Assembly: GCF_009865215.1 (NCBI RefSeq)
Contig: NZ_WWJX01000216.1
Coordinates: 1 to 38,828, forward strand
Reading direction: 5' to 3'
Source: Streptomyces sp. SID3343
Lineage (GTDB): Bacteria; Actinomycetota; Actinomycetes; Streptomycetales; Streptomycetaceae
DNA: 38,828 nt
The position numbers and the translations under genes were made by a program. The notes under the pieces were generated by a model, which was not told where the DNA came from, made no database searches, and saw only the letters and a program-made list of their open reading frames with translations. Positions 2,257 to 4,848 of the stretch are shown piece after piece. How positions within the stretch are numbered: the stretch's first letter is position 1; each line of letters opens with the position of its first letter.

Positions 2257-4848
2257 TCAGCTCTGCGCCATGTCCACGAAACGCGAGTAGTGCCCCTGGA
2301 ACGCGACCGTGATCGTCGCGGTCGGGCCGTTGCGGTGCTTGGCCACGATCAGGTCGGCCTCGCCCGCGCGGGGGGACTCCTTCTCGTACGCATCCTCACG
2401 ATGCAACAGGATGACCATGTCCGCGTCCTGTTCGATGGATCCACTTTCGCGAAGGTCCGAAACCATCGGTTTCTTGTCCGTTCGCTGCTCCGGACCACGG
2501 TTGAGCTGGGACATCGCAACGACCGGGACCTCGAGTTCCTTCGCGAGGAGCTTGAGGTTTCGCGACATCTCGGAGACTTCCTGCTGACGGTTCTCGGCTC
2601 GGCGGGAGCCGCCTGCCTGCATCAGCTGGAGATAGTCGATGATCACGAGTCGCAGATCGTGCTTCTGCTTGAGCCGGCGGCACTTGGCCCGGATCTCCAT
2701 CATCGACAGGTTGGGTGAGTCGTCGATGTACATCGGCGCCGCCGTGACCTCACCCATCTTGCGGGACAACCGCGTCCAGTCGTCATCGGTCATGCTCCCG
2801 GAGCGCATGTGGTGCAATGCGACCCGAGCCTCCGCCGACAACAACCGCATCATGATCTCGTTGCGGCCCATCTCCAGCGAGAAAATCACACTGGCAAGAC
2901 CGTTTTTGATCGAACAGGCGCGTGCAATGTCCAGGCCGAGGGTCGAGTTGTGGGTGGGGATCCAGGACCGGCCGGCCAGATAGAGATGGTTCTCGTTGTC
3001 CACCTCCACGCATCGCACCGGCACCGAGTCGACGCGCCGCACCGCGCTGATATGGCGCAGCCGGGTGGTCGGATGGTCCGGGGCGCTCTGGCGGGCGATC
3101 TTGCGCGTCAGCCGGAAGACCTTGTCCGCCGGCGTGAAGTCCACCTGGTAGCAGACCGACGATTCGGCGCTACGGCCCTCGACCTGCTTCGTGCGCATCG
3201 TCGCGCGATACCCGAGCCCGAGGACGAGTTCGAGCGCGCCCTCGGCGAGCCTGCGGTTGGTCACCGCGAACTGCACGGTTCCGCTCGGGCTCACGTGGCC
3301 GTCGGTGTCGAGCAGCCCGGCGAGGAGATCGCGCCGCTGTTGTTCGGATGCCCGCAGGTAACTCTGCGGGATGTGCTTGTCGTTCAGTACGCCGAGCGTG
3401 CGCAGGATGGCGGGGACGGTACCGTGCCGATCGCGACAGGCTTGGCAGCGCACCGGACCACTCGACGGACGACCGCAATCGGGGCACACGGGCGCGGCGA
3501 CCGGCGCCGAAACCGCCTTCGCCTTGCCACCGCAGGACTTTCCGCACGAGCGCACCCGAGAGGTGCGCGGGACGAACGGTTTCCCGCACACGACGCAGGC
3601 GCGCTCCGCGACGGCCGTCGGCTCGGGGAGGCGCAGGTTGTACAGCAGGTGGCTCGAACCCGGGAGGACTCGGATGCCCTCGCGCTCGATGTGGTCGACT
3701 ATCTCGGAGTCGGCCGTGGTGAACCGGCTTCCGGCGCTGTTCCCGTCACCCAACCACGCGCCCAATACGTACGGCGGCAGCAACAGGTCGCGTTCCGGGA
3801 ACCGGGCGGGGGCGGCAACCCTGACGGCGTGGTTCGACCGATGGTCGGCCGTCTCGCACACCAGCGTGGCCGCGATCTCCTCGGTGGTGCGCACCGTCCC
3901 GGCGAACGACGACCCGTCCGTGCGGTCGCGGGCCGCCCGGCGCTCGGCGTGGGTCTCGGTCACCCATTGGTGCCGGCCGTCCGCGACGATCACCGCACCG
4001 TCCGAGAACTCGACCTCGTAGCACGGGCGATCGATCAACACCTCGGTCGCCGCCACGACGCGGGTGGGTGCTCCGTCGGCTCCGACGAGCAGATCACCGA
4101 CCCGCACCTCGCCCATGGTGGTCCAGCCGCTCGGTGTCGGCAGGGGGGTGTCGAGAGCCAGTGCCTTGCCCATGGCCGGTCGTGCGGCGATGACGATCAT
4201 CTGGCCCGAGTGGAGGCCGTTGGTGAGGGAGTCCAGGTCGGAGAAGCCGGTGGGGATACCGGACATCTGGCCGCCGCGGGAGCCGATCGCCTCGATTTCG
4301 TCGAGGGCGCCCTCCATGATGTCGGCCAGGGGGGCGTAGTCCTCGGTGGTGCGCTGCTCGGTGACCTTGTAGACCTCGGCCTGGGCGTTGTTGACGATGT
4401 CGTCGACCTCGCCGTCGGCCGCGTAGCCCATCTGCACGATGCGGGTGCCGGCCTCGACGAGGCGGCGCAGGACGGCCTGTTCACGCACGATGCGCGCGTA
4501 GTACTCGGCGTTGGCCGCGGTGGGCACCGACGAGATCAGGGTGTGCAGGTACGGGGCACCGCCCACGCGGCCGATCTCGGTGCGCTTGGTCAGCTCGGCC
4601 GCGACGGTGACCGCGTCGGCGGGTTCGCCCCGCGCGTACAGGTCCAGGATCGCGTTGTAGACCAGTTCGTGGGCCGGGCGGTAGAAGTCGATCGGCTTGA
4701 GGTTTTCGACCACGTCGGCGATGGCGTCCTTGGACAACATCATGCCGCCGAGAACCGACTGTTCGGCCGCGATGTCCTGCGGCGGGGTTCGCTCGAAGCC
4801 TTCGCGGGACGGTTCGGGTGGGGCCTCTTCGAACTCGGAGACGCTCAT
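2257..4848 (-). CDS. dnaB: Replicative DNA helicase DnaB with in-frame intein
   Basis: An 863-residue precursor. After removal of the 406-residue intein the host protein is 457 residues, normal for DnaB, the hexameric ATPase that unwinds DNA at the fork. The N-extein (228 residues) has the DnaB N-terminal domain (TPPQDIAAEQSVLGGMML) and linker, ending in RPAMGK of Walker A. The C-extein resumes with STLGLDIARA and carries Walker B (LVIIDYLQLM), the SQLNRGPEQR motif and the arginine-finger region near KHRNGPT. The ATG at 4848 follows AAGGGAGA; the frame stays open upstream but without family similarity. The gene is divergent from the MATE exporter, and its leader holds the DnaA-box-like cluster at 5021-5115. 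Confidence 0.97.
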   Translation of the reverse strand: MSVSEFEEAPPEPSREGFERTPPQDIAAEQSVLGGMMLSKDAIADVVENLKPIDFYRPAHELVYNAILDLYARGEPADAVTVAAELTKRTEIGRVGGAPYLHTLISSVPTAANAEYYARIVREQAVLRRLVEAGTRIVQMGYAADGEVDDIVNNAQAEVYKVTEQRTTEDYAPLADIMEGALDEIEAIGSRGGQMSGIPTGFSDLDSLTNGLHSGQMIVIAARPAMGKALALDTPLPTPSGWTTMGEVRVGDLLVGADGAPTRVVAATEVLIDRPCYEVEFSDGAVIVADGRHQWVTETHAERRAARDRTDGSSFAGTVRTTEEIAATLVCETADHRSNHAVRVAAPARFPERDLLLPPYVLGAWLGDGNSAGSRFTTADSEIVDHIEREGIRVLPGSSHLLYNLRLPEPTAVAERACVVCGKPFVPRTSRVRSCGKSCGGKAKAVSAPVAAPVCPDCGRPSSGPVRCQACRDRHGTVPAILRTLGVLNDKHIPQSYLRASEQQRRDLLAGLLDTDGHVSPSGTVQFAVTNRRLAEGALELVLGLGYRATMRTKQVEGRSAESSVCYQVDFTPADKVFRLTRKIARQSAPDHPTTRLRHISAVRRVDSVPVRCVEVDNENHLYLAGRSWIPTHNSTLGLDIARACSIKNGLASVIFSLEMGRNEIMMRLLSAEARVALHHMRSGSMTDDDWTRLSRKMGEVTAAPMYIDDSPNLSMMEIRAKCRRLKQKHDLRLVIIDYLQLMQAGGSRRAENRQQEVSEMSRNLKLLAKELEVPVVAMSQLNRGPEQRTDKKPMVSDLRESGSIEQDADMVILLHREDAYEKESPRAGEADLIVAKHRNGPTATITVAFQGHYSRFVDMAQS
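2947..4164 (-). other. Class 3 intein with LAGLIDADG homing endonuclease, inserted in the DnaB P-loop
   Basis: A 406-residue intein lies between Lys228 of the P-loop (RPAMGK) and the following Ser-Thr. It starts with Ala (ALALDTPLPTPSGW), not Cys or Ser, and ends in PTHN followed by Ser as +1 residue. The block B Trp (W67 in GRHQW), block F Cys (C385 in VPVRCVEVD) and block G Thr (T404) form the W-C-T set that defines class 3 inteins, which splice from the block F cysteine. Two dodecapeptide motifs, LGAWLGDG (D140) and LLAGLLDTDG (D288), mark a LAGLIDADG endonuclease. Between them are two zinc-finger-like cysteine clusters: C190/C193/C207/C211 and C227/C230/C240/C243. The sequence closely recalls the mycobacterial DnaB intein at the same site. 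It is in frame and all splicing residues are intact. Confidence 0.95.

Follow-up and report, generated by a model that had tools for sequence, protein, structure and literature searches.

Within the window (the whole 38,828-nucleotide stretch analysed here, from Streptomyces sp. SID3343), the gene for the replicative DNA helicase DnaB is interrupted in frame at its P-loop. What is this insert, and from where did it come? We suggest, with a probability of roughly 0.88 for the full statement, that it is a full-length class 3 intein with an intact-looking LAGLIDADG endonuclease, which entered recently from an unsampled actinobacterial donor of a Streptosporangiales/Catenulispora-like group and not from mycobacteria. 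The figure is no higher because the support for the exact place of the intein differs between two trees.

A class 3 intein in the DnaB P-loop

The gene, its exteins and the residues that define the splicing route are located as follows.

2257..4848, minus strand: dnaB precursor, replicative DNA helicase, intein included (863 aa; ORF translation and Pfam)
4165..4848, minus strand: N-extein, the part of DnaB that ends with RPAMGK of Walker A (junction reading, Pfam, congener alignment)
2947..4164, minus strand: class 3 intein, 406 aa (ORF, PDB sequence search, row alignment, fold match)
2257..2946, minus strand: C-extein with stop codon, starting at Ser+1 (STLGLD; junction reading, Pfam, congener alignment)
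4162..4164, minus strand: Ala1, non-nucleophilic first residue (Ala in 103 of 103 rows)
3964..3981, minus strand: block B, Asp62-x-x-His65-x-Trp67 (row alignment, coordinates)
3010..3012, minus strand: Cys385, the class 3 nucleophile in block F (row alignment, coordinates)
2947..2955, minus strand: block G, Thr404-His405-Asn406 (row alignment, coordinates)

The junctions read RPAMGK/ALALDT and WIPTHN/STLG in the DnaB translation. The intein thus separates the Lys from the Ser of Walker A, which is the DnaB-b (P-loop) site. The Pfam DnaB_C match is split into two stretches with LAGLIDADG_3 within the insert, and the precursor scores above the cut-off of NCBIfam intein_Cterm. Three congeners have DnaB proteins that are 98.5, 98.2 and 98.9% identical to the window DnaB at the protein level; in all three the insert is absent and RPAMGKSTLGLD is uninterrupted. 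Since the same DnaB occurs there without the insert and with this segment intact, the borders of the intein are exact and not due to chance. An in-frame insert, a splicing-domain signature, an empty-site counterpart and a fold match to inteins are therefore all in place. The initial annotation had put an intein at 2947-4164 with Ala1, Trp67, Cys385, Thr404, H405-N406 and Ser+1, and both coordinates and residues proved exact; its insertion between the Walker A Lys and Ser agrees with the junctions and with the empty congener sites.

The insert has no nucleophile at position 1 and carries W67 in block B, C385 in block F and T404 in block G, the set that defines class 3. Among solved proteins, those nearest to it in sequence are 6RIX, 6RIY and 6BS8, all of them class 3 DnaB inteins (PDB sequence search, E 1.6e-43 to 5.9e-42), and the earlier assignment to this class is thereby supported at the sequence level. 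We aligned it in a set of 103 DnaB-b rows, made up of 80 genome_contigs loci and 23 whole genomes, with one duplicate (L011 and L057) and hence 102 distinct inteins. Ala1, Asp62, His65, Trp67, Cys385, Thr404, His405 and Asn406 are invariant in all 103 rows. The genome_contigs loci are the best 80 of at least 582 encoding stretches confirmed via two peptide patterns, and the arrangement GK/A...THN/S is present in all of these 80. By the class 3 pathway, Cys385 would attack the Lys-Ala1 bond and the N-extein would then be transferred to Ser+1, after which cyclisation of Asn406 would restore the Lys-Ser pair of Walker A.

An AlphaFold2 model of the intein, built from a 79-row alignment, had a mean pLDDT of 92.1 and a pTM of 0.88. 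Its best Foldseek match was PI-SceI (E 2.4e-18, rmsd about 6-8 A, TM 0.6, 13% identity), and the splicing domain resembled 6BS8 and class 3 mini-inteins with TM values of up to 0.86 by target length. Judged by its residues, then, the insert is a genuine and well-formed class 3 intein at DnaB site b.

DnaB_C matches occur at eight places in the genome, and the split window gene accounts for two of them. Of the others, the best-scoring one is encoded on contig C1326 (L039), which resembles a plasmid; the P-loop of this protein is not interrupted, and it shares 59% identity with the window exteins. Besides this DnaB paralog, the contig carries a further gene for a DnaB-like protein as well as genes that, by reading, resemble those for a GntR-type regulator and a helicase. 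With 98-99% identity, the window dnaB is by sequence the ortholog of the congeners' DnaB, which makes it a fair inference that the chromosomal DnaB, and hence replication, would depend on splicing. This dependence had been claimed before and is consistent with the sequence. A divergent MatE gene adjoins dnaB, and farther away are genes for an ABC transporter, a heavy-metal P-type ATPase, a penicillin-binding protein and inositol-phosphate synthase; we take this gene order to resemble that around Streptomyces dnaB. The streptomycete-like nature of the host genome, as first annotated, is probably correct.

DnaB-b inteins are common in actinobacteria

Presence in such a genome had been called unexpected, which the counts do not support. 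The window intein was matched in 99 of 394 class genomes at E<=1e-20. Among 29 new class loci, GK/A could be read directly in 26 and the THN/S end in all 29. At E<=1e-12, 39 of 249 same-family genomes had a match (the family is presumably Streptomycetaceae; the order grouping is from GTDB), and the DnaB P-loop junction was read in 17 of them, the window included. Two of the other 22 matching family genomes (G231 and G024) were opened, and by reading their matches are not in DnaB. On these matches, the class 3 DnaB-b intein is common in actinobacteria, and that of the window is an ordinary member of a widespread kind. Class 3 inteins at the DnaB P-loop would thus be routine across Actinomycetes and no mycobacterial speciality.

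Related elements were also seen outside this site. Two family genomes carry class 3-like mini-inteins with Ala1 and a C-terminal THN followed by Thr (L277 at G024:C36:48000-52500, and L022 in G012). They sit in the P-loop GANGSGK/A...N/TTTA of proteins that by reading are TraG/VirD4 coupling ATPase-like. Another two family genomes (L012 and L019) have an apparent second DnaB intein after DLRESG in addition to the P-loop intein. Five loci (L016, L268, L271, L274 and L275) have DnaB-b inteins of 501 aa, with about 90 extra aa after about residue 83.

A probable recent arrival from a non-mycobacterial source

We compared trees of the inteins with a tree of the exteins, sampling 47 of the 79 genome_contigs loci plus L057. 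In the 72-row intein tree, the 16 Mycobacteriales inteins formed one clade (100/99) with the window outside, and 12 of the 16 Streptomycetaceae rows formed another (97/94). The window intein grouped with that of G020 (92/86) and then with that of G025, both from the same order, within a group of 11 rows (94/85) that left out four of the seven Streptosporangiales. The 65-row tree and the AU tests exclude L246, L019, L226, L227, L017, L228 and L242, which are long, short or outgroup rows. There, the window lay in a 14-row group (100/99) with G020, G025, four Catenulispora-genus inteins and all seven Streptosporangiales, and the forks nearest to the window intein were under the starred support level (94/84 with G020).

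In the extein tree (73 rows), the window DnaB grouped with the three empty congeners (100/99), with the empty L047 as its sister (100/93), and together they lay inside a family clade of 20 rows (100/99). A survey of related genomes for empty sites, as proposed in the initial annotation, found the same DnaB with an empty site in all three congeners. Since all three, the sister among them, are empty at the same DnaB and both LAGLIDADG acids of the window intein are intact, a recent horizontal arrival in this lineage is likely. Gain on the terminal branch appears to be the simplest history, and the source was probably a non-mycobacterial actinobacterium. Even the nearest intein shares no more than 67% identity with that of the window, so no donor is identified.

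An alternative, which we regard as unlikely, is that the intein is an old one, inherited vertically in Streptomycetaceae and lost repeatedly within the genus. Its junction was, after all, read in 17 of the 249 family genomes, and its base composition is like that of the host gene (G+C at codon position 3 of 0.877 in the intein versus 0.880 in the exteins). Nor did a co-conversion tract mark its arrival: none was found at the junctions over 1371 sites aligned with the three empty congeners, and window-only differences were not enriched near the junctions (Fisher p 0.10 within 20 nt and 0.34 within 30 nt). Given the host-like G+C and the lack of such a tract, composition and flanks show no sign of recent arrival. 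The genus sample consists of four genomes only, the window's included, and is compatible with an old intein lost three times. However, this history requires a precise loss in each of the three empty congeners, and the trees argue against it. Joining the window intein with the 12 Streptomycetaceae rows of the 65-row tree, G020 among them, as one family clade costs 65.0 log units and is rejected (AU p 0.00209), as is the whole order as one intein clade (57.4 log units, AU p 0.00223). Vertical inheritance across Streptomycetales had been named in advance as the finding that would overturn a transfer; because it is rejected at AU p of about 0.002 at both the family and the order level, horizontal movement stands, but from the Streptosporangiales/Catenulispora-like intein group.

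The transfer from mycobacteria or their phages that was first proposed is very improbable. Class 3-like matches are frequent in mycobacteriophage records (Mycobacterium is in the names of 281 of the 533 phage records that match), and it has been proposed that the class as a whole came from phages, as set out in the accessible part of PMC3196547. Yet the Mycobacteriales clade excludes the window, and forcing the window intein into it costs 74.8 log units (AU p 0.00029); the nearest rows are inteins of the same order and of Streptosporangiales. As for a phage source, the best place is below 60% identity in all 533 records, and 40 of the 60 phage matches listed lie in genes annotated as terminase or exonuclease. 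Among the matches listed, the best phage one is to the helicase of a Brevibacterium phage, with 43.9% identity across 85% of the query. Plasmids gave 33 matching records; among those listed, no dnaB gene of a mycobacterial plasmid covers more than 52% of the query. None of these phage and plasmid matches indicates a donor. Separately, in 80 viral class 3 intein loci (L136-L215), Gly-Lys immediately precedes the intein in 52, so that Walker A seems to have been targeted repeatedly.

Least probable of all is that the insert is no longer functional or was brought into the assembly by contamination. The assembly does consist of 1645 contigs, with contamination put at 6.69%, but the exteins are 98-99% identical to those of congeners, the frame is open, all splicing residues are kept, and the best-scoring other DnaB_C protein is the far more divergent paralog on plasmid-like contig C1326.

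The endonuclease and its eight-Cys module

Horizontal arrival of the intein would rely on its endonuclease, for which the following features were located.

3742..3777, minus strand: LAGLIDADG motif 1 (PPYVLGAWLGDG), acid Asp140 (row alignment, coordinates)
3436..3597, minus strand: eight-Cys double zinc-ribbon-like module, Cys190/193/207/211/227/230/240/243, inside the endonuclease domain (row alignment and profiles)
3298..3327, minus strand: LAGLIDADG motif 2 (LLAGLLDTDG), acid Asp288 (Pfam, row alignment)

With two motifs and an acid in each (D140 and D288), the domain is of the LAGLIDADG homing type (PF14528, E 5.8e-08), and its fold matched PI-SceI, PI-PfuI and I-DmoI in Foldseek. The putative endonuclease would cut empty dnaB alleles, into which the intein would then be copied.

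Residues 190-243 between the two motifs follow the spacing C-x2-C-x13-C-x3-C-x14/16-C-x2-C-x9/12-C-x2-C, and all eight Cys are present in 92 of the 103 DnaB-b rows. Pfam DZR_2 matched 23 of 27 eight-Cys segments at E<=0.1. The window segment itself scored 22.4 bits against a cut-off of 27, and we therefore call the module ribbon-like only. PHROG 1271 (phrog_1271, annotated as HNH endonuclease) matched the segment through its positions 176-236 (E 7.3e-05); about equally good was the match to PHROG 1333, whose function is unknown (E 6e-05). A profile search of PDB sequences with the segment gave weak partial matches to zinc-finger and ribosomal proteins (best E 0.024). No viral class 3 intein among the 38 listed has the full pattern. 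One viral contig (L172) encodes a 489-aa class 3 intein with three CxxC pairs, which is possibly a viral form of the module.

At least half of the module is missing in ten rows. A LAGLIDADG acid is lost in eight of these, versus 3 of the 93 rows with the module (plain table 90/3 versus 2/8, Fisher 2.9e-8, kinship ignored). A kinship-aware test found eight independent pairs on the best tree and one on supported branches, and the sign test was not significant. As only one independent pair is supported, relatedness may explain the association. Splicing residues are kept in every row that lacks the module, so by sequence it looks tied to the endonuclease rather than to splicing.

Tentatively, and at somewhat less than even odds, the DnaB-b endonuclease may be a composite in which a zinc-ribbon module, alignable with phrog_1271, lies between the LAGLIDADG motifs and adds DNA contacts. 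If so, the module would be a metal-dependent aiming part that is lost as homing decays, and it would sit in an element whose M. smegmatis relative reportedly stops splicing with zinc and oxidants. The yeast HO protein, a LAGLIDADG enzyme related to an intein, is likewise said to carry a zinc finger. Among literature titles, we found none on a zinc-ribbon or zinc-binding module in DnaB inteins.

The mycobacterial DnaB-b inteins studied in PMC5050341 lack endonucleases, according to the available part of that paper. All 10 Mycobacteriaceae loci among the best 80 of at least 582, a selection that favours full-length forms, have inteins of 403-417 aa with both LAGLIDADG acids. The mini-inteins are probably reduced forms.

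Cys48 and possible redox sensitivity

One further residue bears on regulation.

4021..4023, minus strand: Cys48, counterpart of DnaBi1 Cys48, the disulfide partner of the block F Cys (row alignment)

In M. smegmatis DnaBi1, oxidation joins Cys48 to the catalytic block F Cys, and the accessible part of PMC6195587 describes Cys48 as non-conserved. This position is Cys in 103 of 103 DnaB-b rows. Because one of the two peptide scan patterns behind the genome_contigs rows included Cys48, we also read rows from a pattern-free whole-genome search, and all 52 had Cys (24 of the 52 share their intein with the 103-row set). In the viral class 3 loci, for which one scan pattern likewise contained the position, the counterpart was read by script in 73 of 80, was visible in four more and was absent in three. 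It was missing in one of four phage inteins opened by name, a terminase intein. These alignments indicate that the pair of Cys48 and block F Cys characterises DnaB-b inteins as a family and is also common in inteins elsewhere. Since both residues are present in the window intein and are linked by oxidation in DnaBi1 (PMC6195587, accessible part), redox or zinc sensitivity is plausible by analogy. Because Cys48 is conserved across the family, the proposed redox trap can be put to the test in bacteria other than mycobacteria, and the filled and empty sites within one genus are clean material for homing and fitness tests.

Comparison with known inteins

In overall fold, a splicing domain joined to a LAGLIDADG endonuclease, the window intein resembles PI-SceI, the yeast VMA1 intein endonuclease. 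We take PI-SceI to be a class 1 intein with no eight-Cys module at the corresponding place.

M. smegmatis DnaBi1 (6BS8), according to the accessible part of PMC6195587, shares P-loop site b, class 3, Asp62-x-x-His65, Trp67 and Cys48, as well as the block F Cys, the block G Thr and Ser+1. It is, however, a mini-intein without an endonuclease, whereas the window intein has 406 aa with LAGLIDADG motifs and the eight-Cys module. M. chimaera DnaB1 (6RIX, 6RIY) is the best PDB sequence match (E 1.6e-43) and is likewise class 3, with a Cys-His-Thr triad and Trp67, but its solved chain has 145 residues and the endonuclease domain is absent (PMC7664689, in the part available). The DnaB intein of mycobacteriophage Bethlehem, compared by description alone, is named as class 3 in the accessible part of PMC3196547 and has a phage helicase as its host protein.

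DnaB-b inteins that are full-length, from Catenulispora, Acrocarpospora, Herbidospora, Nocardia, Mycobacterium and other genera, occupy the same site and have a similar length. Those of the five named genera are 59-67% identical to the window intein, and most of these full-length inteins, which are compared by sequence, have the same LAGLIDADG and eight-Cys layout.
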